A stretch of 21,482 nt of DNA from a virus: positions 1-21,482 of the IMG/VR virus record IMGVR_UViG_3300020153_000011; one strand, written 5' to 3'. Shown in pieces: positions 1,805 to 21,134 of this stretch (within the stretch, counting starts at the first letter, position 1; each line of letters opens with the position of its first letter). The notes beneath the pieces were generated by a model. That model made no database searches and had not been told where the DNA came from. It saw only the letters and a program-made list of their open reading frames with translations. A program made the translations under genes and the position numbers.

Positions 1805-1815
1805 GCCTCACCTCC

Positions 1816-3234: not shown

Positions 3235-3244
3235 GCCTCACCTC

Positions 3245-3445: not shown

Positions 3446-3446
3446 C

Positions 3447-3932: not shown

Positions 3933-4369
3933 CGCTGAAGCCACTCCTTGAGGAGGCGTTCCGCCTCCCGGCGGTCCTCCTCGGTGATGCCCAGGTAGGG
4001 GCGGGCGGGGATGCGCACCTTCCGCCCCCGGCCCGCGTACCCCCCGTACTGGTGGATGCGGGCGTAGACCACGTTGGTGCCCACGACGATGGCGTCCCCC
4101 CGCACCGTCCAGGCGATGGAGTTCCGGAACCTGCCCTGGTTGAAGAGGGGCTTTGCCCCCTTACGGCGTCTCTTGGAGCGGGCCAGGGTGACGGGGGAGA
4201 GGGGGGGCCAGGGGGTGCCGTCGGGGGCCCGGCTCTCCTCAAAGCGGCGGAGGGTGCGGCTCTTCACCCCCTCGGCGATGGCCTCCTTCACCCGGCGGGG
4301 TATCCCCCCGGCCAGCTGGTGGAGCTTTTCCTCCAGCTCCCGCCAGTCCCCCCTGAGCCGCACGCCCAT
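3929..4369 (-). CDS. Virion morphogenesis protein (Mu gpG-like)
   Basis: This encodes 146 residues, ATG at 4369 overlapping the previous stop as ATGA. Family hallmarks are visible: a helical N-terminus, the segment SRAPDGTPWPPLSPVTLARS, then KPLFNQGRFRNSI and VYARIHQYGG. These match the Mu gpG / phage virion morphogenesis family (PF05069), needed for head-tail joining or tail length. In Mu this gene follows F; here it sits in the opposite arm from F, one sign that the late genes were rearranged. Confidence 0.85.
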   Translation of the reverse strand: MGVRLRGDWRELEEKLHQLAGGIPRRVKEAIAEGVKSRTLRRFEESRAPDGTPWPPLSPVTLARSKRRRKGAKPLFNQGRFRNSIAWTVRGDAIVVGTNVVYARIHQYGGYAGRGRKVRIPARPYLGITEEDRREAERLLKEWLQR

Positions 4370-4806
4370 CAGAAGTCCTCCAGGCTCTCCCGGCTGAAGA
4401 CCCGCTTGCCCCGGATCCTCGCCCCGCCCAGGGGCCTGGCCGGGGTGGACGCTGGCGGTAGGGGGAGGGAGGCCCGGCCCACGGCCACGTCCCGAAGGAA
4501 GGCCACGGCGTCTTTGTAGCGGTCCCGCACCGCCTCGTCCGCGGTGCCCGGGCGGATGCCTTTCCTGAGGAAGAGCCGGTACACGGCGATGTCCAGGGCC
4601 CTGGCCTTCAGCACCTCCGGCAGGGCGGGGAGGGGGAGGGCGTAGCGCTGGGCCAGGTAGCTCTCCACCTCTCCCCAGGCCTGGCGCAGGGCCTCCTCGG
4701 CCCGGGCCGCCCCCTGGGGGGTGAGCTCCCCCGCCCCCTCGTCGTCCACCAGGTAGAGGAGCTCCCCCTCGGGGAGAGCCTGCCGGAGGTCATCCAGCCC
4801 GATCAT
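4369..4806 (-). CDS. Head-completion protein (Mu gp36, DUF1320-like)
   Basis: This encodes 145 residues, ATG at 4806 overlapping the capsid stop codon. It begins MIGLDDLRQALPEGELLYLV and has the core AWGEVESYLAQRYALPLPAL, then a helix ending in AVYRLFLRKG. This is the all-helical adaptor pattern of DUF1320 (Mu gp36), usually directly downstream of the major capsid gene, as here. Such adaptors connect portal and tail. The C-terminal about 35 residues are Pro/Arg-rich and look flexible. Confidence 0.8.
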   Translation of the reverse strand: MIGLDDLRQALPEGELLYLVDDEGAGELTPQGAARAEEALRQAWGEVESYLAQRYALPLPALPEVLKARALDIAVYRLFLRKGIRPGTADEAVRDRYKDAVAFLRDVAVGRASLPLPPASTPARPLGGARIRGKRVFSRESLEDF

Positions 4807-5702
4807 CAGCTACCCGCGCCGGTGGAGCCGTAGGCCAGCTGCCAGTAGAGGTAGCCCACGGCCTTGCGCTCGTACACGCCAAAGACGAACTCGTTGTGGT
4901 GGAAGACGTGGTCGTCCTCGGGGTTGGTCTTGGCCACCCACTCGGGGTCCATGCGCCGCTGCAGGATGAGGGGCTTGATGGGCCGGGAGCCGTCCACCAG
5001 GAACCAGTAGCTGGCGTAGCTGTCCACCAGCCAGGGGTTGACCAGGACCTCGGCCGCCCCGTAGTCGGGGTTGGCCCCTCCGTTCGGGAGGGTTGGCACC
5101 CCCACGATCTCCGTGGCGGTGGACGCCAGCCCGGGGCCCACGATGAGGAGAGGGCGCTCCAGGAAGAAGCCCAGAGGGTAGCCCCGGCTGTCCTGGAGGC
5201 TGCGCATGCTGGCCAGGGCCTCCCGGAAGGCTTCACGGGAGAGGGGCGCGGTGCCGGCGTTCTGGTAGTTCTTCTTGCCCACCCGGTGGGTGCTGAAGAA
5301 GTTAGCCCCGTCCGGTCCCTGGGCGCTGAAGCCCTTGAGGAGGAGCTGGGTCACCAGGTAGTCGTCGTGCTGGGCCCAGCGGAAGGCGTACTCGCGGGCG
5401 TTGGCGCCCACCTGGTCCAGGAGGTCGTCCTCCACGTCCTTGCGGGCGATGGCGAAGGTCATCTCCCAGTCGGCGTTCTCAAGGTTGATGGTCTTGAGGC
5501 TCAGGTTCTGGACCTGGCGCTCCCCCTTCCACTCCCGCATGGTGGGGAAGTCCTCCAGCCAGGTGTAGACCCCCACCCGCCCTTCCGTCCTGGACTCCAG
5601 AGCGATCCTGTTCCAGAAGGGCCGGTACTCCTCCCGGGCCTGGAAGACCAGGGCCCGGAGGGAGCGGGAGAGGGCGTGGATGCTATCGCGGTTCAGGATC
5701 AT
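4806..5702 (-). CDS. Major capsid protein (Mu gpT-like)
   Basis: This encodes 298 residues from ATG at 5702, directly after the decoration gene's stop codon. The N-terminus (NRDSIHALSRSLRALVFQAR) and the segment DWEMTFAIARKDVEDDLLDQ are typical of Mu gpT-type capsids (PF10124), as is FFSTHRVGKKNYQNAG in the middle. Length is close to Mu T (about 300). It should adopt the HK97 fold and form the icosahedral shell. Order protease-decoration-capsid matches Mu I-J-T. Confidence 0.9.
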   Translation of the reverse strand: MILNRDSIHALSRSLRALVFQAREEYRPFWNRIALESRTEGRVGVYTWLEDFPTMREWKGERQVQNLSLKTINLENADWEMTFAIARKDVEDDLLDQVGANAREYAFRWAQHDDYLVTQLLLKGFSAQGPDGANFFSTHRVGKKNYQNAGTAPLSREAFREALASMRSLQDSRGYPLGFFLERPLLIVGPGLASTATEIVGVPTLPNGGANPDYGAAEVLVNPWLVDSYASYWFLVDGSRPIKPLILQRRMDPEWVAKTNPEDDHVFHHNEFVFGVYERKAVGYLYWQLAYGSTGAGS

Positions 5703-6086
5703 CTACCACACCTCCACCCAGACGTAGTCTCCGTCCACCTGCAGGGCCCGCCCCGCCTTGGAGCGGCCCGTGCCCGTCTTGCCCACGGTGTTGGGTCCGG
5801 TGGCGTACACGTCTTTCCCCAGCTCCGTGGGGCCCACGGGGTCGGCGGGGTCGTTCTCCAAGCGGAACACCCCCCGGCGCACCAGGACCTGTTTGGCCCC
5901 GTCCCCGCCCCCGGTGTTGTCCACGGTCTCCTGGGCCACGCCCAGGGCGATCTTCCCGGTGCCCGGTCCCGCCTCCTCGGCGTAGCCCCCCGAGACCATG
6001 ACCAGGGCCCCCTGCCGGATCACGGCGTTCGCCTTCACCGGGAGGGCGATCAGGTATTCGTCTAACCAGCGCTCGGTGTCAAACAT
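5703..6086 (-). CDS. Capsid decoration-like protein (Mu gpJ position)
   Basis: This encodes 127 residues, ATG at 6086, three bases after the protease stop. It is beta-rich with an early segment LIALPVKANAVIRQGALVMV, a central KIALGVAQETVDNTGGGDGA and a final DGDYVWVEVW. Such sequences resemble small capsid cement proteins (DUF2190/gpD-like) that stabilise shells by binding capsomer junctions. It lies between protease/scaffold and major capsid genes, the usual place. The family assignment is tentative. Confidence 0.65.
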   Translation of the reverse strand: MFDTERWLDEYLIALPVKANAVIRQGALVMVSGGYAEEAGPGTGKIALGVAQETVDNTGGGDGAKQVLVRRGVFRLENDPADPVGPTELGKDVYATGPNTVGKTGTGRSKAGRALQVDGDYVWVEVW

Positions 6087-6089
6087 AGG

Positions 6090-6590
6090 CTACCCCCACT
6101 TCTGCCAGGCCTCGTCCTTCACGCCCAGGGCCCGGCGGAGCCGCTCGGCGGGGTCCTCCTCCAGGGAGGCCCTGGGCGCCTCGCTCCGGGGCAGGCTGGT
6201 GGGCACCAGCCGGGGCATCCCCTCGAGGGCCTTCCGGGTGGCCTCCAGATCGGCCCGGGCCTGGGCCAGCCAGAACTCCCGCTGGTGGGGCAGGATGCGC
6301 CCCTCCTCCAGGGCGGCCCGCACCAGGGCCTGGGCCTTCTCCTCCCGGGTCTGGGCCCGGAGGGCCTCCAGCTCCGCCCGGGTGCGCTCCAGCTCCGCCA
6401 GGGCGTCCTGGGCCGCCAGGAGCCTGAGGAGCTTGGCCTTGAGCTCCATCGTGTCCTCGCCTCCCAGGCCCAGCTCCAGGACCACCCGGCCCACCCGGGC
6501 TTCCCTCAGCGCCCCTTCCAGGGCCTGGAAGGCCTCCTCCTCCGTGGCCTGGGGCGGGAGCCCCAGGGCCTGCCTCAGCTTCTCCAGCAT
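6090..6590 (-). CDS. Nested capsid scaffold protein by internal start (Mu gpZ-like)
   Basis: Within the protease gene, in the same frame, codon 171 is an ATG (6590) preceded by GGAGG with a 5-base spacer, a strong ribosome binding site. Starting there gives a 166-residue protein (MLEKLRQALGLPPQATEEEA) made almost entirely of coiled-coil helix, the expected form of an internal scaffold. In Mu, scaffold Z is made from an internal start in gene I. The site here makes the same arrangement likely, but use of this start is inferred. Confidence 0.65.
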   Translation of the reverse strand: MLEKLRQALGLPPQATEEEAFQALEGALREARVGRVVLELGLGGEDTMELKAKLLRLLAAQDALAELERTRAELEALRAQTREEKAQALVRAALEEGRILPHQREFWLAQARADLEATRKALEGMPRLVPTSLPRSEAPRASLEEDPAERLRRALGVKDEAWQKWG

Positions 6591-7100
6591 GTCCGCCTCC
6601 GCTTCAATGCGCTTTTGCATCCGGATGCCGGGGTTGTTGGTGAGGGCGAAACTATGGTAGCCCAGCACCCGGTGCCTGCCCATCTCGTCGGGCCGGGGGT
6701 CGTAGTAGAAGACGGGGGAGACGTAGGCGTACTCCCCCCGGCTCACCCGCTCCCTGCCCGTCTCCGACCACTCCACCACGCCGTACACGACGCCGTCCTC
6801 GCCCACCTCCAGACCGGTGATGAACCCGGCGGCCGGGGCCTCCCCCGCCTGCCCCTCCTCCACCCGCACCGTCTGGTGGTGGAAGTCCAGGACCCAGGGC
6901 ACGCCCCTCTCCTCCAGGTCCCGCAATGCCGCCTGGAGGCTCTCCTCGTCGTAGAGGAAGAGGGTGCCGTTGCCCACGAACTCCCCGTAGGGGTGGAGGG
7001 GAATGCGGCTAGGCGCCTCGCCCAAGGCGGCGCGCAGCGTGCCGGAAAAGGTCGGGGTGGAGGTATCGGTATTCTTGGGGAAGCCGGTCAAACTCGGCAT
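6090..7100 (-). CDS. Prohead protease with scaffold domain (Mu gpI-like)
   Basis: This encodes 336 residues, ATG at 7100 with GAGGAGG five bases upstream. Residues 33-80 carry the Mu-type protease pattern, IPLHPYGEFVGNGTLFLYDE followed by VLDFHHQTV (compare DYEHQT in relatives). The block EYAYVSPVFYYDP (123-135) and HSFALTNNPGIR (149-160) are also characteristic (PF10123). From residue 171 the protein becomes a long charged coiled coil, the scaffold part. The protease matures the head by cutting scaffold and itself. An 80-bp gap separates it from the holin-like gene, large for this operon. Confidence 0.88.
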   Translation of the reverse strand: MPSLTGFPKNTDTSTPTFSGTLRAALGEAPSRIPLHPYGEFVGNGTLFLYDEESLQAALRDLEERGVPWVLDFHHQTVRVEEGQAGEAPAAGFITGLEVGEDGVVYGVVEWSETGRERVSRGEYAYVSPVFYYDPRPDEMGRHRVLGYHSFALTNNPGIRMQKRIEAEADMLEKLRQALGLPPQATEEEAFQALEGALREARVGRVVLELGLGGEDTMELKAKLLRLLAAQDALAELERTRAELEALRAQTREEKAQALVRAALEEGRILPHQREFWLAQARADLEATRKALEGMPRLVPTSLPRSEAPRASLEEDPAERLRRALGVKDEAWQKWG

Positions 7101-7180: not shown

Positions 7181-7456
7181 TCAGGCCCCGGCCCCGGCGG
7201 GGGTGCCTTGAGCGCCCTCGCCCTTGCGAAAGGTGCCGTCCCGGTTGAAGACGGACACCACCATGTCAATGACCCAGCCCACCACCTGGTCCGGGAGCCA
7301 GGCGGGCCAGAAGCCCAGGATGGAGACCACCACGTCCTTGATCCGCTTCAGGGCCTCCTCCTTCTTCTGGATCCCGGGCACTCCGTCCATGAGGTCCTCC
7401 ACCACGAGGACGGCCAGGCCCACGGCGAAATAGACCACCCGCAGAAGCTTCAGCAT
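7181..7456 (-). CDS. Holin-like membrane protein
   Basis: This encodes 91 residues from ATG at 7456, with TTAGGGAGGAAGC as ribosome binding site; it is the first gene after the left 85-bp element. There is a hydrophobic N-terminal segment (residues 3-20, LLRVVYFAVGLAVLVVE), a charged GIQKKEEALKRIKD linker, and a second moderately hydrophobic stretch (VVVSILGFWPAWLPDQVVGW). This layout resembles some small phage holins, but no endolysin gene is nearby, so lysis function is tentative. The C-terminus is Gly/Ala-rich. Confidence 0.5.
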   Translation of the reverse strand: MLKLLRVVYFAVGLAVLVVEDLMDGVPGIQKKEEALKRIKDVVVSILGFWPAWLPDQVVGWVIDMVVSVFNRDGTFRKGEGAQGTPAGAGA

Positions 7457-7464
7457 GCTTCCTC

Positions 7465-7549
7465 CCTAAAAAGCCTTACCCCCTGGGCTTACCCAGGGGG
7501 CACTTACCCAACCTTAGCCGTAGGGTACCACGGGGGGTGGGGGGGTGTC
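7465..7549 (-). promoter_or_regulatory. Left copy of the 85-bp inverted duplication, late-operon control element
   Basis: Read on the minus strand, this matches 15788-15872 base for base over a 17-bp block (GACACCCCCCCACCCCC) and a 55-bp core, separated in both copies by a diverged 13-bp spacer. The core contains two TGGGTAAG repeats 15 bp apart, a 9-bp stem (CCCCCTGGG/CCCAGGGGG, loop TAAG, 7500-7479) and a five-T run 6 bases later. It begins at the repressor stop codon and ends in the ribosome binding site of the holin-like gene. It may hold a terminator, late promoter or antitermination site; the sequence does not settle which. Confidence 0.75.
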
Positions 7550-8198
7550 AATCCAGCCGGCTCCGCACCTCAACCACCCGCCCCACGATCTCCGCCACCT
7601 CCTCCTTGGGGATGACCGGAGGGCCGTTGTTCTCGTCGGGGTTGGTGGAGTACAAGGCGTCCCGGCCCATCTTCTTGACCACGTAGGTATGCTCGTTTAG
7701 GCGCGCCACCACGATGGCCCCGGGGTGGCCCTTGTCCTGCGTGTTGACGATGACGATGTCCCCGTGGCAGATGGGGCGCTTGCCGGCGCACATGGAGTTG
7801 CCCCGCACCTTGAAGGCCACCAGGTGGGAGGCGTCTCCCTTGACGCGGACGGGGACGGTGCGCTCCTCGATCTCCTCCAGCTGGGGCGGGCCGCCGCCCA
7901 CGTAGCCAAGGACAGGCACTCCCACTTCTTTCCGAGTCAAAAAAGAGCCTTCGGGATAAAGCCTCTCAATGAGGTTCTCCACAGGGATTTCCAGCGCTAG
8001 GGAAAGTTTGGTAAGGGTGTCCAGGCTGGGCTTGATGTACTTGTCCCCGATTTTCCGCCCAATGACCAGGCTATACACTGTTGTGCGGCCGATGTCGTAA
8101 TGGTCCGCAAACTCTTCCAGCTTGCGGAAGCCCTTTTCACGCATCTTGGCCAGGATTTCCTTGGCGAAAGGCCCTTCGAAGTAGCGTTTTCTCTCCAT
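7548..8198 (-). CDS. Phage repressor, LexA/CI-type with S24 peptidase-like domain
   Basis: This encodes 216 residues from ATG at 8198 preceded by GGGGGGAGC; an in-frame TTG at 8228 has no such site. Residues about 23-80 form a helix-turn-helix domain (ADHYDIGRTTVYSLVIGRKI). The C-terminal half is an S24/LexA fold with catalytic Ser in RGNSMC (Ser135) and Lys in TYVVKKM (Lys175 or 176). The usual Ala-Gly or Cys-Gly self-cleavage site is not evident; the hinge reads LGYVGGGPP. It is divergent from the Cro/Ner-like gene, as expected for the immunity region, and should keep the early operon silent. DNA damage may trigger self-cleavage. Confidence 0.88.
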   Translation of the reverse strand: MERKRYFEGPFAKEILAKMREKGFRKLEEFADHYDIGRTTVYSLVIGRKIGDKYIKPSLDTLTKLSLALEIPVENLIERLYPEGSFLTRKEVGVPVLGYVGGGPPQLEEIEERTVPVRVKGDASHLVAFKVRGNSMCAGKRPICHGDIVIVNTQDKGHPGAIVVARLNEHTYVVKKMGRDALYSTNPDENNGPPVIPKEEVAEIVGRVVEVRSRLD

Positions 8199-8251
8199 GC
8201 TCCCCCCTTTCACGACCCGGGTCCTCAATACTTTCTTCTATTGAAGCACCC

Positions 8252-8281
8252 TTGACTTACTCACAAGTGGGATGGTACACT
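8252..8281 (+). promoter_or_regulatory. Candidate early promoter
   Basis: TTGACT (8252-8257) and TACACT (8276-8281) are spaced by 18 bp and resemble -35 and -10 boxes of the housekeeping sigma factor. Transcription would begin near 8288-8290, at or next to the ATG of the Cro/Ner-like gene, so the mRNA would be leaderless, common in Thermus/Deinococcus. The adjoining palindrome would let a repressor block it. Confidence 0.6.
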
Positions 8282-8298
8282 ACTCTCAGATGAGAGTA
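8281..8298. promoter_or_regulatory. Palindromic operator at the early promoter
   Basis: TACTCTCAGATGAGAGTA has perfect 8-bp arms around two central bases. It overlaps the presumed transcription start and the ATG at 8290. A closely related palindrome (CTCTCACGTGAGAG) recurs at 11426-11439. The repressor and/or Cro/Ner-like protein are the likely ligands. Confidence 0.7.
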
Positions 8299-8523
8299 AA
8301 GGCCCGCCTTAATCTTCACAGGGTTGAACGCCTCCTAGAGGAGCGTGGGTGGTCCAAGTACCGCCTTTCCCGCCTGGCCGGACTGAGTTATGGGCATGTG
8401 ATCATGCTCCTCCAGGGGCGGCGCCCTAATCCGTCTATAGCCACTGTCGCTAAGCTGGCCCAGGCTTTTGGTGTACCCATCGAGGAGCTTTTGGAGGAAG
8501 ACGATGGCGTGGTTGCCCGTTGA
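8290..8523 (+). CDS. Cro/Ner-like helix-turn-helix regulator
   Basis: This encodes 77 residues from ATG at 8290; another ATG at 8272 in the same frame would add six residues but lies upstream of the expected transcription start. The Cro/CI-type helix-turn-helix is clear: WSKYRLSRLAGLSYGHVIML, then GRRPNPSIATVAKLAQAFGV. As the first gene of the early operon, opposite the repressor, it takes the place of Mu Ner, which damps early and repressor transcription. Its 3' end overlaps the transposase gene by 20 bases and carries that gene's ribosome binding site. Confidence 0.8.
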   Translation: MRVKARLNLHRVERLLEERGWSKYRLSRLAGLSYGHVIMLLQGRRPNPSIATVAKLAQAFGVPIEELLEEDDGVVAR

Positions 8524-10465
8524 CGAAGCCGCTGCCCTGTTGGGGGTTTCCAGGGCGTGGGCTTGGAGGGTGATCAAGGAGCGGGGCCTACCGACCCGGC
8601 TTGAGCGGATGGGCCGCGTGTACCGCACTTTGGTTGACGCTGATCTCCTCGCTCTGGCTTTGGGCAAAGAGCCTGTTGGGGGCAAAGAGGAAGAGCCCAC
8701 GGGGCTTCGCCCTTCCAGCGGCACGAGGACGGCCTGGGCCGATGTGGCCCTTGTGGCCGAGGAGTACGGTCAGTTGCCAAGAGGCCTGCGATGGGAGCTC
8801 GTCCTCCGTACCGCCGAGCGGTGGGGCGTGACCCCTGAGTACGCTTACCGGGTCATTCGGCGTTTTCGGGAGGAAGGGGCGGGTGGCATTGCGCCGAAGG
8901 TGCGCCGGGATAAGGGAGTGCATCGGGTTCCTTCCGAGCTTCGCCAGCTCATCCTGGGCCTGAAGTTGGCCCACCCCGGAGCCTCGGCCTCAAAGATTCT
9001 GCGCATTATCCAGTTGAATGACCCCGATCTCCTGCGATACAAGCCGTATCAAAATGGCTCTACCATCAACACGCTTTCCGCCTCCACGGTGCGCAGGTTG
9101 ATCAAGGCGGCGGAGAGCATCCCCGCATACCGATGGGCCCTCCTCTCTGATGAGGGTAGACGGGAGTTCGCCCGCACTTGGGCGGGGCATGTGATGGCCG
9201 AATATCCCATGCAGATGGTCATGGTGGACATGACCAGGTGCGACACCTTTGTCTACAACCCTGACGAGGGGAGCGCCTACCGGCTCAGGATCCACGTGGC
9301 CCTGGATGTGTTCTCCGGGGCCTCGCCCAGCCTGGTGTTCAGCCGCGAGGAGTCCCAGGTGCCCACCGATCAGCTCCTCATCCTGATGACCCAGGACAAG
9401 AGCGGGTTGGCCCCAGGTTGGGACATCTTCGGTGTCCCGGAGCGGATTTACTGGGATAACGGTAAAGTGTACAAGTCCGAAAAATCTGAACACTTCGCCC
9501 GCCAGCTGGGCATTGAGCTGATTTACTCCCGCCCCCGGGTATCCCACACCCGAGGGCGGGTTGAGTGGTTTTTTGGGGCCTTCCACCAGGAGTTTGAGGC
9601 TCTTATCCCCGGCTATGCGGGCCAGGACGCCACCGAGCGGGACTCCACCCAGCTGAAGCGCCTCATCGCCAACACCCGAGCCTGGGTGGCGGCGGGCATG
9701 CCTCCTGAGGAGGACCCCTATCCTAACCGGCTCCTCCTGGAGGAGGAGTACAAGGCCCGCGCTCTAGCCTGGCTCCTCCAGGACTGGCACCGGAAGCCAG
9801 TGGGCCGGGACGGCCTTTCCAGGGCAGACCTTTTCCGGGCCTACGTGCCCCGGCACCGCCTCGTGCGCCTGGACCTCGGGGACCTTTATCTCCTCACCGC
9901 CTACCAGACCGAGCGGGTGGTGCGGGGGAACGGGACCGTGGCCTACAACGGTAGGACCTACTACCTTCGCCCCGAGGATGGCTCCCTCCTCCCCTGGCAG
10001 GGGCAGAAGATCGTGGTCCTGGACGTCCGGGTTCTCCCCGGCCAGCCCCTTCGGGCCGCCCTGCGCCAGCCCGATGGGAGCCTCCGGGTTCTTGGGGAAC
10101 TCATTCCCGAACCTCTGCGGGCGGACAGCCTCGAGGCTAAGGCCAAGAGGCTGGCCGACAAGGCCGCCATTCGGGCTGTGCGGGAGGCGGCCCAGGAGCT
10201 CACCGCCCAGCTGGGGCCTGCCGTGCGGTTTGAAGAGATCCTGGAACGCCTTTCCGGCCTCGCGCCTCTGGCCCGAAGGGAGCGGGTCCGCCCGATGGCC
10301 CAGGAGCTCCCCCGCCCCTCGGAGGAGGAGCTCCAGGCCGCCGCGGCCGAGCTGGAAGACGGTTTGGACGACTTGATCTGGGAACCCATCGCCCTGGGCG
10401 ATAAGTGGCTCCGGGAGCGGGGCCTTCTTCCCCCGGGTGAAGGGAAAAAAGGAGGTGACGCATGA
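8504..10465 (+). CDS. DDE transposase, MuA-like
   Basis: This encodes 653 residues from ATG at 8504 with GGAGG six bases upstream; a TTG at 8468 would add 12 residues without such a site. Residues 5-55 form an excisionase-like helix-turn-helix (VDEAAALLGVSRAWAWRVIK), and a second DNA-binding region follows to about 210. The catalytic core shows Asp242 (VMVDMTRCD), Asp318 (IYWDNGKVY) and Glu354 (GRVEWFFGAF), the DDE triad of the retroviral integrase superfamily. A beta-barrel-like part follows and the C-terminus is helical, where MuA contacts MuB. Length is near MuA (663). It should cut and join the phage ends during integration and replicative transposition. Confidence 0.92.
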   Translation: MAWLPVDEAAALLGVSRAWAWRVIKERGLPTRLERMGRVYRTLVDADLLALALGKEPVGGKEEEPTGLRPSSGTRTAWADVALVAEEYGQLPRGLRWELVLRTAERWGVTPEYAYRVIRRFREEGAGGIAPKVRRDKGVHRVPSELRQLILGLKLAHPGASASKILRIIQLNDPDLLRYKPYQNGSTINTLSASTVRRLIKAAESIPAYRWALLSDEGRREFARTWAGHVMAEYPMQMVMVDMTRCDTFVYNPDEGSAYRLRIHVALDVFSGASPSLVFSREESQVPTDQLLILMTQDKSGLAPGWDIFGVPERIYWDNGKVYKSEKSEHFARQLGIELIYSRPRVSHTRGRVEWFFGAFHQEFEALIPGYAGQDATERDSTQLKRLIANTRAWVAAGMPPEEDPYPNRLLLEEEYKARALAWLLQDWHRKPVGRDGLSRADLFRAYVPRHRLVRLDLGDLYLLTAYQTERVVRGNGTVAYNGRTYYLRPEDGSLLPWQGQKIVVLDVRVLPGQPLRAALRQPDGSLRVLGELIPEPLRADSLEAKAKRLADKAAIRAVREAAQELTAQLGPAVRFEEILERLSGLAPLARRERVRPMAQELPRPSEEELQAAAAELEDGLDDLIWEPIALGDKWLRERGLLPPGEGKKGGDA

Positions 10466-11232
10466 CGGAAGCAGAGATCAGCAGGCTTATTGACGAGGTG
10501 TTTGGTGGCTACGTTCCCGAGGCGGAGCTAAGGGACCCCCGCAACGGGTTCATCCCCACCGCCGGGGCCCGGGCTCTTCTGGGGCACTTGGCCCTTGCAG
10601 TCCAGGAGCGCTTCCCGTTCGCTCTGGTGGTGGGGCCCGCCGGGGTGGGGAAGACCCTGACATGCCGCTACTACGCGATGGAACACGAGGCCCCCTGGGT
10701 GCGGGCCCAGCCTGCCTACAGCCCGGCCGCCCTCCTTGAGGACATGGCCGTGGAGCTCCGCATCACCAGGACCAAGGTCTTCCGGGTCCTCCTCGCTATG
10801 GTCCGGGACGCCCTCCTTCTCCGCCCCCGGGTGGTCTTTATAGACGAGGCCCAGCTCATGGACCGCCCCACGCTGGAAACGGCGAAGTACCTGGCCGACG
10901 AAACGGGCTCCACCTTCGTCCTCATCACCACCGATGAGTACGCCCCTCAGATCCGCCGCTATCGGGACATTGAGTCCCGCATCGGAACCGTGGCCCAGAT
11001 AGGGCCCGTGCCCGCCGCTGAGCTGGTGGGCATCTACGAAGGCTCGGGCTACACCCGCGCCGCCCTGGAGGAGGTCCACCGGCTCACGGGCGGGATTCTC
11101 AGGGACGTGGTTCGCCTCATCAAGCAGATGGACACCCTGGTGGAGCTCAACAGCATCCCAAAAGGGGCCATTACCCCGGCTCACGTGCGGCGTCTGGCCT
11201 CCAGGTTGAATCTTGCGGGGGGTGCAGCGTGA
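10462..11232 (+). CDS. Transposition target-capture ATPase, MuB-like
   Basis: This encodes 256 residues, ATG at 10462 overlapping the transposase stop as ATGA. Walker A is GPAGVGKT (58-65) and Walker B VVFIDEA (124-130), in an AAA+ fold like MuB/IstB/TniB proteins; VLITTDEY follows as a sensor-like segment. MuB forms ATP-dependent filaments on target DNA and stimulates the transposase. Compared with MuB (312 residues) the N-terminal helix-turn-helix part is short or missing. It is translationally coupled to the transposase gene. Confidence 0.9.
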   Translation: MTEAEISRLIDEVFGGYVPEAELRDPRNGFIPTAGARALLGHLALAVQERFPFALVVGPAGVGKTLTCRYYAMEHEAPWVRAQPAYSPAALLEDMAVELRITRTKVFRVLLAMVRDALLLRPRVVFIDEAQLMDRPTLETAKYLADETGSTFVLITTDEYAPQIRRYRDIESRIGTVAQIGPVPAAELVGIYEGSGYTRAALEEVHRLTGGILRDVVRLIKQMDTLVELNSIPKGAITPAHVRRLASRLNLAGGAA

Positions 11233-14064: not shown

Positions 14065-14279
14065 CGGACTGGGAGCGCTTTGCGAAAGAGGTGGAGCGGC
14101 GTCTGGTGCGGGACGGGGAGGTCGCCATCTGCGTGGGCCTCACCTCGGTGGGGGGTCCCTACTGCCCGCCCCTGGAAGGGCTTATGAAGGCCTACATCCA
14201 GGTGCCCAGGGGCCTGGTCTGGTACGGGCGCGCCCAAGGCCGGGTCTACTGGATGTGGCAGCCCCTGGAGGAGGCGTGA
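14061..14279 (+). CDS. Small hypothetical protein
   Basis: This encodes 72 residues from ATG at 14061, overlapping the preceding stop as ATGA and following GGAGGTGG. It has an N-terminal helix (TDWERFAKEVERRLVRDGEV) and then strands with GGPYCPPLEG and RVYWMWQPLEEA. No family recognised. Confidence 0.65.
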   Translation: MTDWERFAKEVERRLVRDGEVAICVGLTSVGGPYCPPLEGLMKAYIQVPRGLVWYGRAQGRVYWMWQPLEEA

Positions 14280-14530
14280 GCCCCGAGGAGGCCCTGAACA
14301 CCCTGCTCCTGCACGCCTACGAGGCTGCTTCCGGCGGGGCCTACCTAGAGGTGGAGCGGGCGGGCGAGACCCTGCGGGAGGCTCTGCGCAGGCTGGCGGG
14401 GGCCGAGCGGGAGCTGGAGGTCTTGCGGGCCCGGGAGGCCTCCCTCTCCCGGCGGGTGCGTGAGGCCGAGGAAGCGCGCTACCGGGCCCTCAGGCTGTTG
14501 CTGGAGCTGGAAAGGGAGTTGAAAAGATGA
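14276..14530 (+). CDS. Small coiled-coil protein
   Basis: This encodes 84 residues from GTG at 14276 overlapping the previous stop as GTGA, with GGAGGAGGC upstream. From about residue 30 it is a single heptad-rich helix (ETLREALRRLAGAERELEVL, then RALRLLLELERELKR). Likely a dimeric coiled coil; its partner could be the next gene's membrane protein, to which it is translationally coupled (ATGA). Confidence 0.65.
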   Translation: MSPEEALNTLLLHAYEAASGGAYLEVERAGETLREALRRLAGAERELEVLRAREASLSRRVREAEEARYRALRLLLELERELKR

Positions 14531-15375
14531 GAAACGCCATGATCGGGCTGTTGATTCTGGCTTATCTGAGCACCCTGGCCATGAGCGCGGGCCACCTGGC
14601 CCAGTGGTACGCCAAGAGCCTGGGGGGGCTTCCCCCCGGGCTGGCCTGGGGCCTGGCGGGGAGCCTGGAGTTCACCGCCTTCCTCCTCTCCCTTCTCTCC
14701 AACTCCCTCCTCCGGGGCTCTTCCTGGGCGGGGACGGGGGCGGTCCTGGCCCTGGGCCTGGTCTGGGTGGGGAACGCCCTCTCCATGCACCGGGGGGCCC
14801 CGGACCTCCCCCTGTGGGAGGTCCTGCTGATGAGCCTCTTCGTGCCCGTGGGCACCTACGTGGTGGGGAAGGTGGTGGGGGAGCTCCTGGCCTGGCCACA
14901 TCCTGTGGCCGTGATGGCCACGAGGGAAAGGAGGACGGCCACTCAGAGTGGACACCTGGCCTCTTCGCTGGCCGGGGAAGCGGCCACTAACCGGGAGAAT
15001 GTGGCCGCCCCTGGCCAGGGGGCGGGCAGGGAGGTGGCCACCCAGCGGGCCCACTTGGCACCTGGGGTGCTCAAGGATAATGGGGAAGATGGTGCCCTGT
15101 GGCCAGGGGTTGGCCATGAAGGTGGGCGTGAGGGCACGGCCACCCTCAAGGTGAAGCGGAGCGTGGACATGGAGTGGACGCTGGAAGGTCGGGCGGTGGA
15201 GGTGGTCAGGGCCCTGTCCGCCCACGGCGGTCCCGTGGCCGTGGCCAGGTTGGCCGCGGAGCTGGGGTGGCCGCGGACCACCCTGAGGCGGTACTTGGAC
15301 CGCCTGGAGGGGGAGGGGGTGGTCGTGCGCACCGAGGAGGGCTGGGCCCTGGCCAGGGAGGTGGACCATGTTTGA
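14527..15375 (+). CDS. Membrane-tethered winged-helix protein
   Basis: This encodes 282 residues, ATG at 14527 overlapping the previous stop. The N-terminal about 120 residues hold four hydrophobic segments (roughly 4-22, 36-58, 66-86, 94-120). A polar, probably disordered linker follows (about 125-212), then a winged-helix domain at 218-278 (EVVRALSAHGGPVAVARLAA, WPRTTLRRYLDRLEGEGVVV) of the MarR/IclR type. A DNA-binding domain on a membrane anchor is rare in phages; DUF2637/SpdB2-like proteins of actinobacterial plasmids have a comparable layout. It may hold DNA at the membrane or sense membrane state. The linker DNA is packed with TGGCCA sites. Confidence 0.75.
   Translation: MRNAMIGLLILAYLSTLAMSAGHLAQWYAKSLGGLPPGLAWGLAGSLEFTAFLLSLLSNSLLRGSSWAGTGAVLALGLVWVGNALSMHRGAPDLPLWEVLLMSLFVPVGTYVVGKVVGELLAWPHPVAVMATRERRTATQSGHLASSLAGEAATNRENVAAPGQGAGREVATQRAHLAPGVLKDNGEDGALWPGVGHEGGREGTATLKVKRSVDMEWTLEGRAVEVVRALSAHGGPVAVARLAAELGWPRTTLRRYLDRLEGEGVVVRTEEGWALAREVDHV
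14893..15143. repeat. Cluster of TGGCCA/CGGCCAC motifs in the linker of the membrane-winged-helix gene
   Basis: The palindrome TGGCCA occurs at 14893, 14915, 15012, 15035, 15100 and 15111, with two more at 15242 and 15350. CGGCCAC versions begin at 14936, 14981 and 15137. The copies fall in all three reading frames (encoding Trp-Pro, Ala-Thr and Gly-Gln/His), so protein repeats do not explain them. A binding-site array for a DNA-binding protein is possible. Confidence 0.45.
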
Positions 15376-15817
15376 ACCCAGGGAGCTATGGCGGGCCCAG
15401 TGGGTGGCCGCGGCCCTCTGGCGGGTGGTGCACGGGGAAGCCCGGTGGGTCACCCTGGAGCCTCAGGACCACCGGCCCTCCCAGGGGCTCCCGACGGAGT
15501 ACGCCCTGACCACCCGTCAGGCGGACGCCCCGGCCTACCTGCCCGTGTACGTCCCCCCTCTGCCCGACCTGGGGATAGAGCGGGAGTACCTGCGCCTGTG
15601 GCGGTCGGACTACGTGGCCTTTCTCAAGAGCCTCCACCCCGGGGAGCGCCAGGTGGTAGAGGCGTGGCTCGGCAAGGGCAAACTCACCCCCCTCGCGATT
15701 TACAACCCCTCCGCCAGGCGGATCCAGGTCATGGCCTCCCAGGACGCGCTGGACCTCTTCGTGCGCCTGGCCCGCCGGGCCACCCTAGACACCCCCCCAC
15801 CCCCTGAGGTAGAGTAG
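15368..15817 (+). CDS. Hypothetical protein at the end of the early operon
   Basis: This encodes 149 residues, ATG at 15368 overlapping the preceding stop, with CAGGGAGGTGGACC upstream. It is a soluble protein with Trp-rich N-terminus (REWLWRAQ-like, actual ELWRAQWVAAALWRVVHG), a proline-rich middle (LPVYVPPLPDLG) and helical C-terminal half (EYLRLWRSDYVAFLKSLHPG). In Mu the activator Mor/C sits at this point of the genome, but I see no helix-turn-helix here. Its last codons and stop lie in the right copy of the 85-bp element. Confidence 0.7.
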   Translation: MFEPRELWRAQWVAAALWRVVHGEARWVTLEPQDHRPSQGLPTEYALTTRQADAPAYLPVYVPPLPDLGIEREYLRLWRSDYVAFLKSLHPGERQVVEAWLGKGKLTPLAIYNPSARRIQVMASQDALDLFVRLARRATLDTPPPPEVE

Positions 15818-15872
15818 GGCTAAGGTTGGGTAAGTGCCCCCTGGGTAAGCCCAGGGGGTAAGGCTTTTTAGG
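15788..15872 (+). promoter_or_regulatory. Right copy of the 85-bp inverted duplication, late-operon control element
   Basis: This is the inverted partner of 7465-7549. The 55-bp core (15818-15872) is identical. The hairpin stem is 15837-15845 with 15850-15858, the TGGGTAAG repeats are at 15827 and 15842, and the T-run is 15865-15869. The left 17 bp encode the tail of the last early protein, and the right edge merges into the AGGAGGAGG ribosome binding site of the packaging operon. It therefore sits at the early/late boundary exactly as the left copy sits between repressor and capsid operon. Confidence 0.75.
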
Positions 15873-16487: not shown

Positions 16488-16667
16488 GTGGACCTCCAGG
16501 AGGAGATCCGGGCCCTCTCGGTGGCCGTTCGGCGCTACCAGGAGGAGACTCTTTTGGAGCTCCGCCGCCTGCGGGAGGAGCTGGAGGAGGAACGCCGCCA
16601 GCGCCGGGCGGAGCGGTGGCTCTTCGCCCTGACCCTCGTGGCGGCTCTGGTGGGGTGGTGGCGGTGA
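16488..16667 (+). CDS. Small coiled-coil protein with C-terminal membrane anchor
   Basis: This encodes 59 residues from GTG at 16488 preceded by AGGAGGTAGC. Residues 3-40 form a charged coiled coil (RRYQEETLLELRRLREELEE) and the last about 15 are hydrophobic (LFALTLVAALVGWW), so it is probably tail-anchored. Its position before TerS equals that of DUF2730-type (Mu gp25-like) proteins, which have the anchor at the other end. Function unknown. Confidence 0.65.
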   Translation: MDLQEEIRALSVAVRRYQEETLLELRRLREELEEERRQRRAERWLFALTLVAALVGWWR

Positions 16668-17203
16668 AGCTCCACTACCGCAGGCACCGACTGTGCAAGG
16701 TGTGCGCCCTCCCGGACGAGGTGCGGGAGCGGGTGGACGCCATGATCCTGGGCGAGGAGACGGAGGAGGACGGCCGCCCCCACTCCCTGGAAGGGATCGC
16801 CGCCTGGTTGAAGGCCCAGGGGTACGAGGCCTCCACCAGCTCCGTCCGCCGCCACGCCCGGCACCTGGCCCCGGCCCTGGACCAGGTGCTGCAGATGGAG
16901 CGCCTGGTGGAGGCGGTGGAGGAGGCCACCGGGAAGCGCCTCTCCTACGCCGCCGCCCTCGCCAACATCGTGGTGCACAAGACCCTCCGCTACCTGGACG
17001 GGCTGGAGCTGGGGGAGGCGGAGGTGGACCCGGAGAAGATCGTCCGCCTGGGGCTGGAAGCGGCCCGGGTGGCCCTCTCCCTGGCGCGGATAGACCGTTC
17101 CCTCAAGCAGGAGGCGGCGGAGAAGGTGGAGAAGGCCCTCCGGGTGCGGGAGATAGAGCCCGAGGTGATCGAGGCCATCAAGCGGGATCTCTATGGCCTT
17201 TGA
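16664..17203 (+). CDS. Terminase small subunit (Mu gp27, DUF3486-like)
   Basis: This encodes 179 residues from GTG at 16664, overlapping the preceding stop as GTGA; a GTG at 16658 is also possible. The N-terminus resembles DUF3486: CKVCALPDEVRERVDAMILG, then a helix-turn-helix LEGIAAWLKAQGYEASTSSV, then long helices to the end. TerS recognises phage DNA for headful packaging and stimulates TerL. It overlaps the TerL gene by 11 bases. Confidence 0.8.
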   Translation: MKLHYRRHRLCKVCALPDEVRERVDAMILGEETEEDGRPHSLEGIAAWLKAQGYEASTSSVRRHARHLAPALDQVLQMERLVEAVEEATGKRLSYAAALANIVVHKTLRYLDGLELGEAEVDPEKIVRLGLEAARVALSLARIDRSLKQEAAEKVEKALRVREIEPEVIEAIKRDLYGL

Positions 17204-18470
17204 CCTTCTGCCCTACCAGCGGGCCTGGCTGAAGGACCAAAGCCGCTTCAAGATCGGCCTCTGGTCCCGCCAGACGGGGAAGAGCTTCGCCCTGGCCGCG
17301 GAGGCGGCCCTGGACGCCGTGGAGAACACGGGCTCCACATGGGTGCTCCTCTCCGCCGGGGAGAGGCAGAGCCGGGAGCTGGCGGAGAAGGTCCGGCATC
17401 ACCTGGAGGCCATGAAGCAGGTGATGGAGTACATGGAAAGCCGCTTCCTGGAGGGGGGCGAGAGCGTGACCCAGCTGGAGATCCGCCTCCCCAACCTCTC
17501 CCGCCTCATCTTCCTCCCCGCTAACCCCCGCACCGCCCGCGGCTACACGGGCAACGTGGTCCTGGACGAGTTCGCCTTCCATCAGGACTCCGAGGCCATC
17601 TGGGCGGCCATGTACCCCATCATCACCCGCAGGCCGGACCTGAAGATCCGGGTCATGTCCACGCCCAACGGCCCCCGGGGGAAGTTCTGGGAGCTCTGGG
17701 AGAAGGGCGGGCCTGTGTGGTCCAGGCACAAGGTCACCATCTACGACGCCGTGGCCCAGGGCCTTCCCGTGGACCCCGAGGAGCTCCGGGCGGGCCTGGC
17801 CGACGACTTCATCTGGCAACAGGAGTACCTGTGTGAGTTCCTCTCCGCCGAGGAGGCCTTCCTGCCCTGGAGCCTCATCCTGGAGGCCGAAGCCCGGGAG
17901 GACCCTCGGGGCCCCTGGAACCCCGAGGCGGCCTACCTGGGGATGGACATCGGCAGGCACCGGGACCTCACGGTTCTCGTGGTCTTGGAGCGGGTGGGGG
18001 ACGTGTACTGGGTGCGCCTTTTGGAGACCCTGCACCGGGCTCCTTTCGCCCAGCAGGAGGCCCGCCTCCACGCCCTCCTGCCCCAGGTACGCCGGGCCTG
18101 TATAGACGCCACGGGTCTGGGGGAGATGCTGGCGGAGAACGCCCGCCGGGCCTTTGGCTACAAGGTGGAGCCCGTGAAGTTCACCCCCGAGGTGAAGGCG
18201 GACCTGGCCCAGCGCCTCCGCCTCTTCTTTGAGGACCGGAGGGTGCGCATCCCCGAGGACCGGGCCCTGCGGGAGGACCTGCACAGCGTGCGGCGGGTGG
18301 TGACCCCCTCGGGGAACGTCCGCTACGACGCCGAGCGGTCGGAGCGGGGACACGCGGACCGCTTCTGGGCCCTGGCCCTGGCCCTGCACGCCGCCGAGAC
18401 CCGCAGGGGCCCGGTGGAGTACAAGAGCGTCCTCCGGCGGGCCTTCGCGGGCTGGAAAGGAGCCTACTGA
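17193..18470 (+). CDS. Terminase large subunit (Mu gp28-like)
   Basis: This encodes 425 residues from ATG at 17193. The ATPase has a Walker A-like SRQTGKS (25-31) and Walker B VVLDEFA (122-128), followed by the coupling motif VMSTPNG (154-160). The RNase H-like nuclease shows Asp252 (GMDIGRHRD), Asp305 (CIDATGLGE) and Asp388 (HADRFWALAL), as expected for the metal-binding triad. It pumps DNA into proheads and cuts it when full. In Mu-like packaging it starts at one end and takes in flanking host DNA. Confidence 0.92.
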   Translation: MAFDLLPYQRAWLKDQSRFKIGLWSRQTGKSFALAAEAALDAVENTGSTWVLLSAGERQSRELAEKVRHHLEAMKQVMEYMESRFLEGGESVTQLEIRLPNLSRLIFLPANPRTARGYTGNVVLDEFAFHQDSEAIWAAMYPIITRRPDLKIRVMSTPNGPRGKFWELWEKGGPVWSRHKVTIYDAVAQGLPVDPEELRAGLADDFIWQQEYLCEFLSAEEAFLPWSLILEAEAREDPRGPWNPEAAYLGMDIGRHRDLTVLVVLERVGDVYWVRLLETLHRAPFAQQEARLHALLPQVRRACIDATGLGEMLAENARRAFGYKVEPVKFTPEVKADLAQRLRLFFEDRRVRIPEDRALREDLHSVRRVVTPSGNVRYDAERSERGHADRFWALALALHAAETRRGPVEYKSVLRRAFAGWKGAY

Positions 18471-19981
18471 TGGCTATCTTGGACCAGTACGGACGGCCCA
18501 TCCCCAGTGAGCCCCCAAGGGGGGCCCGGGGGGCTTTAGCCATAGAGCCCCCCATGCCCTCCTACCCCGCCCGGGGCCTCACCCCGGAGCGCCTCTCCCG
18601 CATCCTGCGCCAGGCGGACGAGGGGGACCTGGGCGAGCAGGCGGAGCTCTTCCAGCAGATGGAGGAGCGGGACGCCCTCCTCTTCTCCCTCCTGCAGACC
18701 AGGAAGCAGGCGGTGGTCGGCCTGGACTGGCGGCTGGAGCCCGCGGAGGCCTCCCGCCAGGCCCGGCGGATCCTGGCGGAGGTGGAGCGGGTGTGGTGGG
18801 ACCTCCCCCTGGAGGACCTCATGCTGGACCTCCTCTCCGCCATCCCCCAGGGGGTGAGCGTGGTGGCCGTGGCCTGGCGGCGGGAGGGGGAGGTGTGGCG
18901 CCCGGCCCACTTCCGCTGGGTCCACCCCGCCTCCCTGGTCTACGACCCGGAGGAGGACCGCTTCCTCCTGGCCACCCGGGAGAAGCCCCGGGGGGAGCCC
19001 TTCGCCTACGGGGCGGCCATAGAGCACCGCTACAAGGCCCGATCGGGCCTCCCCACCCGGGCCGGGCTGATGCGGAGCCTGGCCTGGCTTTACCTCTTCA
19101 AGCACTACGCCCTCAAGGACTGGGTGACCTTCGCCGAGGTGTACGGCCAGCCCTACCGCATCGGCAGGTACGACCCCGCTGCCGGGGAGGAGGAGCGCAG
19201 GCGCCTGGAAGAGGCGGTGCGCTCCCTGGGGGCGGACGCCGCCGGGGTCATCTCCAAGGACACGGAGATCCAGATTCTGGAGGCGGCCAAAGGCCAGGGG
19301 CCCCAGGTGTACGAGAACCTGATCCGCCTCTGCAACCGGGAGATGGCCCAGGCGGTCCTGGGGCAGACCCTTACCGCCAGCGAGGGGGACGGGGGGTCGT
19401 ACGCCCTGGCCAAGGTGCACGAGCGCGTGCGCATAGACCTCCTCCGGGCGGACGCCCGCGCCCTGGCCAAGACCCTGCGGGAGAGTCTCTTGAAGCCCTT
19501 CGTGGCCTTCAACTTCGGCCCCGAGTTCCTTCACCTGGCCCCCTACCCCGTCCCCGAGGTGGAGGAGGAGCGGGACCTGGAGAGCCGGGCCCGGGTCCTG
19601 CAGGCCCTCCAGGGGATGGGCCTCGCCCTCCCCGAGGCCTGGCTCAGGGAGGAGTTCGGGGTGCCCGCCCCCCAGGAGGGGGAGCGGGTGGTGGCCCCGG
19701 GCCTGGCCCCCAAGGAGCGGAAGACCCGGGGGCTGGTGGCGGGCCAGGCCTTCGTGGACCGCCTGGCGGACCGCCTCTCGGAGGCCGAGGCCCCGGGCCT
19801 CCCCGCCCTCCTGAAGGCCATAGAGGAGGCCCAGGACTACGAGGACCTGAGGCGGAGGGTGCTGGCCCTCTACCCGGACCTCCCCTTCGCCGAGCTGGCC
19901 CAGCTCCTGGACGCCGCCCTCCTCCTCTCGGAGCTCGCCGGCAGGCTAGCCCAGCGCCAGGACAGTGGCCTGGACGGTTGA
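18470..19981 (+). CDS. Portal protein (Mu gp29, DUF935-like)
   Basis: This encodes 503 residues, ATG at 18470 overlapping the TerL stop. Signatures of DUF935 include ERDALLFSLLQTRKQAVVGL, the helix LFKHYALKDWVTFAEVYGQP and AVLGQTLTASEGDGGSYALA. Mu gp29 is 512 residues. The portal forms the dodecameric ring at the head vertex through which DNA enters and leaves. Its 3' end overlaps the MuF gene by 17 bases. Confidence 0.92.
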   Translation: MAILDQYGRPIPSEPPRGARGALAIEPPMPSYPARGLTPERLSRILRQADEGDLGEQAELFQQMEERDALLFSLLQTRKQAVVGLDWRLEPAEASRQARRILAEVERVWWDLPLEDLMLDLLSAIPQGVSVVAVAWRREGEVWRPAHFRWVHPASLVYDPEEDRFLLATREKPRGEPFAYGAAIEHRYKARSGLPTRAGLMRSLAWLYLFKHYALKDWVTFAEVYGQPYRIGRYDPAAGEEERRRLEEAVRSLGADAAGVISKDTEIQILEAAKGQGPQVYENLIRLCNREMAQAVLGQTLTASEGDGGSYALAKVHERVRIDLLRADARALAKTLRESLLKPFVAFNFGPEFLHLAPYPVPEVEEERDLESRARVLQALQGMGLALPEAWLREEFGVPAPQEGERVVAPGLAPKERKTRGLVAGQAFVDRLADRLSEAEAPGLPALLKAIEEAQDYEDLRRRVLALYPDLPFAELAQLLDAALLLSELAGRLAQRQDSGLDG

Positions 19982-21134
19982 GCCCGACCCCCTCAGGCCG
20001 GAGCGGGCCCTCCGCTGGTTCGCCCGCAGGCTGGCCCTCCCCGACGAGGAGCTGAAGGCCCTCTCGGAGGAGGCCCGGAGGCGGGCCTTCTGGGTCTCGG
20101 GCCTGGCCGCCCTGGACATGGTGCAGGAGGTGATGGACGCCCTGGAGCGGGCCCTGGCCGAGGGGGAGACCTACGAGGACTTCCGCCGACGCCTCTCCGA
20201 GCGGGTGCGGACCGCCTGGGGGCGGGGAAGCCCATACCGCCTGGAGCTCATTTTCCGAACCAACCTCCAGCTGGCCTACGGGGCGGGGCGGTACCGGGAG
20301 GCGGAGCGGGTGAAGGACCTCCGCCCCTACTGGGGCCTCTCCGTGGTCCTGGACGGGCGCACCTCCCGCATCTGCGCCCCCCTGGCGGGGGTGGTCCTGC
20401 CCGCCGACCACCCCTTCTGGCGGAACCACATCCCGCCCCTGCACTACAACTGCCGGACCGCCCTGGTCACGTACTCCCGGGAGGAGGGGGAGCGCCTGGC
20501 CTGGAAGGAGGCCCCCGCCCACGCCCCCCAGGAGGGCTTCGGGAGGCCTCCGGGGCGGGAGGAGTGGAGCCCCAACCCCCGGGACTACCACCCGGAGCTA
20601 TGGCGTGCCTACCTCCGGGCGTTGGGGCGGGGGATGCCGGAGGCGGACCGCTACCTGGCCGGGCTCGTCACTACCCGCCAGCCCAGGCCCACCGACTGGA
20701 TGCTTGCCGCGGGGAGGGTATCGGTGGCCAGCTTCCCCGAGCGGGAGGAGCGGGTGAAGGACCAGGAAGTCAGGGCAATCCTGGGACCGAGGGCGCAGAG
20801 GATCGCCCAGAAGATCGCCAAGCACGCCCTCCTGGAAGGGCAGTTCCGCCCCGACCTCACTCCAGAGGAGTACCTGGAAGCTTTGCGTTCGGCTGCGGCC
20901 CACCCGGAGGCCGCCGTCGTGGTGCACGCCCCTCCCAGGGGGCCCGCGCTACTGGTTATCGCCCCCAGCGAGGCCGCTGGCGAGGCCTTAGGCCCCAACG
21001 CCCTCCCCTGGCTTGTGGTGGTCTATGACCTCACTTATGGTACCCTGATAACGGGGTACCAAGCCTCGTCCCTGAAAGAGGTCACCCTATGGCGCAACCA
21101 CCTCTGGCTACGCAAGAACCCCAGGCTCTCCTGA
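19965..21134 (+). CDS. MuF-type minor head protein with C-terminal extension (Mu gp30/F-like)
   Basis: This encodes 389 residues from GTG at 19965, no strong ribosome binding site but overlapping the portal gene. Residues about 60-170 are the MuF domain (PF04233): FRTNLQLAYGAGRYREAE, then TSRICAPLAGVVLPADHPFW and HYNCRTALV. From about 260 a separate domain follows, ending in strands VVVYDLTYGTLITGYQ and TLWRNHLWLRKNP. This end resembles BECR-type (barnase/EndoU/colicin E5/RelE-like) nuclease domains that are often fused to MuF proteins, where they are thought to be toxins. The MuF part helps head assembly; the nuclease reading is an inference from pattern. Confidence 0.88.
   Translation: MAWTVEPDPLRPERALRWFARRLALPDEELKALSEEARRRAFWVSGLAALDMVQEVMDALERALAEGETYEDFRRRLSERVRTAWGRGSPYRLELIFRTNLQLAYGAGRYREAERVKDLRPYWGLSVVLDGRTSRICAPLAGVVLPADHPFWRNHIPPLHYNCRTALVTYSREEGERLAWKEAPAHAPQEGFGRPPGREEWSPNPRDYHPELWRAYLRALGRGMPEADRYLAGLVTTRQPRPTDWMLAAGRVSVASFPEREERVKDQEVRAILGPRAQRIAQKIAKHALLEGQFRPDLTPEEYLEALRSAAAHPEAAVVVHAPPRGPALLVIAPSEAAGEALGPNALPWLVVVYDLTYGTLITGYQASSLKEVTLWRNHLWLRKNPRLS

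Follow-up and report, generated by a model that had tools for sequence, protein, structure and literature searches.

The stretch of DNA analysed here (the window) is an IMG/VR virus record of 21,482 bases, and the coordinates of its relevant features are collected in Table 1. It belongs to a heat-loving, Mu-like transposable phage, with the focal gene near the end of the early operon. The original prediction had used the label of a phage early operon, and this label fits since MuA and MuB are encoded upstream and terminase, portal and MuF downstream. Genes for a Mu-type protease, capsid, neck, sheath and tube are found on the minus strand, to the left of the repressor.

The late genes of Mu type are split over both strands in a Thermus-type lineage, comprising the window (1391-7100 on the minus and 16616-21134 on the plus strand) and loci L068-L073 and L086. 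Terminase, portal and MuF share one strand, and the protease, capsid and tail genes lie beside the repressor on the other. Unlike in this lineage, the protease and decoration genes of L081-L084, and the capsid gene where seen, follow MuF on the same strand.

Directly upstream, the focal gene overlaps by the letters ATGA with an open reading frame whose heptad pattern was reached by none of 500 shuffles, in agreement with the expected translational coupling to a coiled-coil protein. This reading frame was not detected in the Meiothermus-type relatives when neighbourhoods were compared. Downstream lies g15368, which has four invariant residues (W8, A10, W18 and W27) and yielded no Pfam or PHROG match and no solved relative. 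At 15786-15860 a promoter-like site precedes a terminator-like hairpin by about 20 bases, and the next gene lies beyond the hairpin; it looks as though the late transcript would start into its own terminator.

Table 1. Positions of the focal gene, its predicted parts and its neighbours in the window
Feature	Position	Strand	Remarks
S24 repressor	7548-8228	-	context
Cro-type HTH	8272-8523		context
MuA-type transposase	8468-10465	+	context, upstream of focal gene
MuB-type ATPase	10462-11232	+	context, upstream of focal gene
Coiled-coil-like ORF	14255-14530	+	upstream, overlaps focal gene; heptad test
Focal gene	14527-15375	+	ATG start, 282 aa; membrane domain, linker, beta-hairpin, winged helix
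Predicted membrane helix 1	14530-14619	+	residues 2-31; G22-H23 invariant (AlphaFold2; conservation)
Predicted membrane helix 2	14635-14703	+	residues 37 to ~59-63; E48 invariant (AlphaFold2; conservation)
Predicted membrane helix 3	14722-14796	+	residues 66-90; G82-N83 invariant (AlphaFold2; conservation)
Predicted membrane helix 4	14812-14892	+	residues 96 to ~121-122; G114-K115, G118-E119 invariant (AlphaFold2; conservation)
Disordered linker	14893-15138	+	residues 123-204; fast-changing (AlphaFold2; identity comparison)
Beta-hairpin ahead of head	15142-15186	+	strands 206-210, 216-220 (AlphaFold2)
Winged-helix head, IclR/MarR type	15190-15351	+	residues 222-275 (Pfam; AlphaFold2)
g15368, next gene	15368-15817	+	after focal gene in all Mu-type loci compared; co-exchanged with head
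Promoter-like site TAGACA-18-TAGAGT	15786-15815	+	right end of cassette; 1 found, 0.1 expected
Terminator-like hairpin with T run	15835-15860	+	1 found, 0.9 expected by chance; fold z -1.61
Terminase small and large subunits, Mu-type portal, MuF	16616-21134	+	context, downstream of focal gene

Architecture of the focal protein

AlphaFold2 and the Pfam match agree with the predicted layout of four transmembrane segments, a disordered linker and a winged helix. The linker is indeed present, but it counts about 82 residues rather than the 90 or so stated earlier. When the whole protein is modelled the overall pLDDT is 58.9, with block means of mostly 83-89 in the winged helix and values below 50 for residues 108-204, which have no confident structure. 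Modelled alone, the membrane part reaches a pLDDT of 85.4 and a pTM of 0.70. The head matches Pfam HTH_IclR over residues 222-268 (E 3.6e-10; 39.9 bits, cut-off 22). An effector or dimerisation domain of IclR/MarR type was absent from Pfam and NCBIfam scans, and the remainder of the protein consists of membrane core and linker.

According to the models all four helices are predicted to insert into the membrane. In the window protein a Kyte-Doolittle value above 1.6 is found for helices 1 and 4 only, helices 2 and 3 being less hydrophobic; among the relatives this threshold is reached by helix 2 in L009, L044, L035 and L038, and by helix 3 in L035. The loops between the modelled helices are just a few residues long, so a periplasmic sensor domain would be lacking. 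The idea that the protein signals envelope events such as superinfection consequently finds no direct support.

The membrane core is the best-conserved part of the family. Between the window protein and L003 the membrane part is 86% identical against 33% for the linker; L003 and L010 share 99% of the core and 31% of the rest, and for the window protein and L044 these values are 63% and 30%. The distance from helix 4 to the recognition helix ranges from 44 to 136 residues within the family. In the linker of L032 a unit of about 22 residues is repeated in tandem several times, and the linker of L011 is likewise repetitive.

Relatives in phages and conjugation operons

With the focal protein (P0001) and A1 as queries, five and then ten IMG/VR loci (including the first five) were obtained. 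A Meiothermus-type query added five contigs, which brings the total to 15 (L002-L006, L009-L013 and L090-L094); two genome contigs, both Meiothermus, matched as well. Among 111 Deinococcota genomes, 45 were matched by profile A1 at E <= 1e-3, many of them through head-only matches to unrelated regulators. Counting core matches only, the membrane core is present in its native order at 22 loci in 19 of the 111 genomes, in addition to the 15 IMG/VR contigs. One of these 22 spans two frames (L026, G079:C10:49687-50489), and the split is due to a frameshift mutation or else to an error in the sequence. Given that the relatives retain the complete architecture, the focal gene is not the product of two genes joined by error, a possibility that had been raised at the outset.

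Of the 40 loci compared, 24 have a Mu-type gene order in which MuA/MuB precede the focal gene and TerS-TerL-portal-MuF come after it; the gene following the focal one is g15368 in every one of these 24. L045 and L084 show the equivalent position on sequences too short to reach MuA/MuB. The remaining 16 are conjugation loci, permuted loci and L046 (an unrelated regulator only). Seen from the other side, Portal_Mu occurs at 20 places in 17 of the 111 genomes, and the focal gene is found 3-6 kb away at 15 of these, precisely the ones scoring above 290 bits. The other five (below 215 bits) have no focal relative and no MuA/MuB match within the stretches fetched, some of which end near a contig end.

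Comparison of nearly identical phages yields a new point. The DNA of L003 is 97-100% identical to that of L010, L011 and L013 over the membrane part and 92-100% beyond the promoter-like site, against 43-74% across the linker, head, g15368 and promoter-like site. Linker, head and next gene thus form a cassette that is exchanged between phages about 99% identical on either side of it. The promoter-like site has a similar form across head types (by eye). L005 carries the head of L003 (type A) together with a third kind of g15368 and promoter region; this mixture indicates that the cassette has at least two break points and that head and promoter are not strictly linked.

The core was also compared with viral models using Foldseek. 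The top-ranked model is A7XXH4, a protein of Thermus phage P74-26 (E 3.8e-5; TMq 0.76; 34% identity), which from its length and match we read as P74p12. The gene for this unannotated protein of 200 aa (7384-7986) is flanked by those for DNA polymerase and ribonucleotide reductase. The core profile is matched by the N-terminus of P74p12 at E 6.5e-10 (hhalign P 2.3e-10, against 0.019 reversed), and its C-terminus matches HTH_17 at E 1.6e-4, under the Pfam cut-off. P74p12 resembles the focal protein in having four homologous helices in the same order, a linker and a C-terminal helix-turn-helix, but differs in its short linker and in its head, which is of HTH_17/MerR-excisionase type. PHROG 26929 matches the focal protein at E 6.7e-7 and the core alone at 1.2e-6, and judging by length and match P74p12 probably belongs to it. 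The earlier statement that no known phage protein shows this architecture therefore does not hold: P74p12 is a homologue with the same layout, and gp25 of phiC31 shares that layout by fold. Other ranks include a Rhodococcus phage 'excisionase' (7) and a mycobacteriophage 'helix-turn-helix DNA binding domain protein' (19).

Several other searches returned nothing. No tblastn match to the focal protein was found among phages or plasmids even though P74-26 is in the phage set, hence tblastn is too weak for this core. The whole-protein model gave nothing at E < 0.001 against viral models. A PDB sequence search found no solved relative (three matches at E 0.92-0.94 are due to chance), the best PDB Foldseek match has E 0.3, and the top VIA-align hit (entry 9cu8, a TNFR2 complex; Z 8.5) falls inside the stated background for helical bundles. 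This lack of a solved structural match is not evidence for a new fold. In the literature searched, which covered few subscription journals, we found no account of the focal protein, and DUF2637 is named in one paper; the accessible parts of a Thermus prophage paper (PMC4605624) and of a P23-45 transcription paper (PMC10770324) hold nothing on it.

A second new point is that the phage-type membrane core is present in type IV secretion (conjugation) operons as well. Seven native-order loci lie outside Mu-like prophages (L074-L080). Their cores are 55-78% identical to two non-Mu query cores (99% between L078 and L079), and the L044/L075 core is 63% identical to that of the window. Pfam assignments for nine proteins at three of the seven loci include a TraG/VirB4-type ATPase, a type IV coupling protein, an SLT transglycosylase and a VirB11/SpoIIIAA-like ATPase. 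With tblastn, coupling protein, VirB11-like ATPase and SLT were found within the fetched 18.5-20 kb at six of the seven loci; at L079 a ParB gene was the only one seen alongside the focal-type gene. A ParB-type gene directly adjoins the focal-type gene in two Deinococcota elements (L078 and L079).

Given the Thermus connection we also considered ICETh1 and transjugation. In the accessible parts of PMC5365140 and PMC7767461 this is an FtsK-type TdtA system without mention of a protein of the focal kind, whereas the elements found here carry VirB4, a coupling protein and VirB11.

The core also exists in a circularly permuted form, at six genome loci (L039-L043 and L047) and on nine Thermus plasmids. 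The equivalent of helix 4 comes first, followed by helices 1-3, the linker and the head. In hhalign, with five sequences (two after redundancy filtering), helices 1-3 of both forms align with P 2.6e-10 and probability 96.8, and the permuted N-terminal helix aligns to helix 4 of the family with P 1.9e-4; a reversed control gave P 0.012. On pTHTHE1601 and the NEB1569 plasmid the permuted gene is part of an operon with a TraC/DUF87 ATPase, a coupling protein, a transglycosylase, an ATPase and a zinc metallopeptidase. Native proteins have 0-2 K/R in loop 1-2 (zero in 13 of 22) and 1-2 in loop 2-3; permuted ones have three in loop 1-2 and 0-1 in loop 2-3. By the positive-inside rule this reversal of loop charges suggests an inverted membrane topology in the permuted members, provided that the head is cytosolic in both forms.

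Thus the proposed search of Thermus plasmids and prophages recovers the same core in both. The membrane part recurs with different heads in related phages and conjugative systems, two kinds of genomic context, and is widespread in the host group.

Possible function

The reading we prefer, although tentatively and at somewhat less than even odds, is that of a membrane anchor with exchangeable DNA-binding heads which holds the DNA of the element at the inner membrane. The focal protein would be an integral inner-membrane protein carrying its winged helix on a long flexible cytosolic arm, and this C-terminal winged helix would keep the DNA of the mobile element at the membrane by binding a site on it. 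The four-helix core would be the constant part, through which the protein docks, oligomerises or touches a conserved partner in the membrane, and the exchangeable head would set which DNA is held. For conjugative elements this would mean delivery of their DNA to the type IV secretion apparatus, and for phages a membrane location of the phage DNA during replication or transposition.

An anchor is the simplest reading because a constant core, a variable linker and a variable DNA-binding head are combined in a replication or transfer operon in all contexts. The variable linker length is what would be expected of a tether. Further points in its favour are the strong conservation of the core, the exchange of head and linker between nearly identical phages, the core in conjugation operons (native and permuted) and the location of the P74-26 homologue between polymerase and reductase genes. 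On the other hand, the hydrophobicity of helices 2 and 3 of the window protein is only moderate, IclR/MarR-type heads are commoner in transcription factors, and a position near the end of the early operon, by a promoter-like site, fits regulation equally well. Neither was a DNA target found, since no 12-mer outside the cassette tracks head type beyond other groupings. With the cassette masked, the 12-mers separating four type A contigs from three type B contigs number 16 one way and 312 the other, inside the range of 0 to 2358 seen for the other 34 groupings of these seven sequences. This result weakens the tether and a regulatory role alike.

Nearly as likely as the anchor is a membrane-bound transcription regulator, the head of which represses or activates a promoter of the element while the core senses membrane state or a partner. 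In the phage the promoter would be the promoter-like site before the lysis, terminase and head genes, and the head could possibly be freed by proteolysis of the linker. The IclR/MarR-type head agrees with such a role, as do the zinc metallopeptidase just downstream in the Thermus plasmid operons and the outcome of the scans of early-operon proteins, in which a Mor/C-type activator was not recognised. The focal protein itself has no Mor-type Pfam or PHROG match. The cassette keeps head, g15368 and promoter-like site together, but the combination in L005 argues against strict linkage, and an extracytoplasmic sensor domain is lacking.

Temperate phages and conjugative elements both exclude relatives, and it might be argued that the core blocks or senses incoming DNA while the head recognises a site on it. 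The presence of the family in both kinds of element and the variation of the head between close phages are in line with superinfection or entry exclusion. We nevertheless consider this improbable: the gene lies in the early lytic operon and not beside the repressor, across contigs the type of head follows neither the repressor nor the MuA type, and the P74-26 homologue is part of a DNA metabolism cluster. A role in lysis, as a holin or similar protein that has gained a DNA-binding tail, is suggested by the four short-loop helices and by the position shortly before the presumed lysis/terminase block, but is very improbable given the same core in conjugation operons and Pfam holin matches at noise level (E 2.7 and 3.9).

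The observation underlying the original prediction is confirmed and its interpretation is partly supported. A broader proposal, which we regard as rather doubtful in its entirety, is that one four-helix core with swapped helix-turn-helix heads serves as a membrane-docking module shared by Mu-like and siphoviral phages and Thermaceae type IV secretion elements. It would be permuted and inverted on Thermus conjugative plasmids, would have DUF2637 as a distant counterpart, and would anchor or read element DNA at the inner membrane.

To our knowledge, studies of mobile-element proteins that bind DNA from a membrane anchor are few (SpdB2 and phi29 p16.7 are examples), and it is rare for a small membrane domain to be circularly permuted with its topology apparently inverted. 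Such an inversion is testable, a fixed core with natural head swaps provides ready-made chimaeras, and family members on Thermus plasmids and in a lytic phage of known sequence make the system tractable. A core common to phage and conjugation operons also raises the question of which need a secretion system and a transposing phage share where DNA at the membrane is concerned.

Comparison with known systems

The DUF2637 (PF10935) proteins of actinobacterial plasmids and phages may resemble the focal core in fold, going by predicted models on both sides: phage proteins carrying this name come third and fourth in the Foldseek list (E 4e-3 and 5e-3; TMq 0.67 and 0.65). The plasmid form (Microbacterium KAE78_RS14655) likewise has four helices, a linker and a C-terminal helix-turn-helix. 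Homology is without sequence support. PF10935, with a cut-off of 22.8 bits, does not match the core of ten family members at E up to 10 and gives weak matches of 14-15 bits, below that cut-off, to three permuted members. The hhalign P values of 0.13-0.22, from a profile of only seven DUF2637-type sequences, are close to those of reversed controls (0.40-0.51). Membership, suspected by eye from the spacing of an acidic residue in helix 2 and an N in helix 3, thus failed the sequence tests; on the fold matches a distant relation may still exist, and we do not count the focal protein as a member.

One true DUF2637 member, with a C-terminal HTH, does occur in Deinococcota (G104, E 1.7e-10), and it has the Microbacterium plasmid protein as a relative. 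The latter is matched by 513 phage records at E <= 1; five proteins read from these are all core-only and annotated as 'excisionase', 'membrane protein' or 'hypothetical protein'. The mycobacteriophage 'excisionase' records of PHROG 733 (L063 3001-3432, L064 2986-3429 and L067 3001-3435) are membrane-only and DUF2637-like, and their label looks wrong.

By eye, phiC31 gp25 (Foldseek rank 13) has a similar hydrophobic N-terminal half, a long acidic/proline linker and an HTH-like C-terminus. Its Foldseek E is only 0.078, however, its sequence is not similar to the focal family (hhalign P 0.43) and it has no Pfam HTH match.

Regulators of CadC/ToxR type also tether a winged helix to the membrane, with a cytosolic N-terminal OmpR-type head, one helix and a periplasmic sensor. 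The focal protein differs in its C-terminal head, its four helices and the absence of a sensor domain between them. Phi29 p16.7 combines one membrane segment at its N-terminus with a coiled coil and a homeodomain-like domain, and has no four-helix core; like the focal protein it is a phage membrane protein with DNA binding (predicted for the latter). According to the accessible part of PMC4974454, p16.7 binds DNA and organises replication at the membrane. SpdB2 of the Streptomyces plasmid pSVH1, likewise integral to the membrane, has dsDNA and the TraB translocase as binding partners (PMC4170104, accessible part). SpdB2 and SpdB of pIJ101 resemble the focal protein in being integral membrane proteins of mobile elements; in sequence, pIJ101 SpdB matches neither PF10935 nor any PHROG. 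As far as these accessible parts describe them, SpdB2 and p16.7 are the nearest functional precedents for a protein that would hold element DNA at the membrane.
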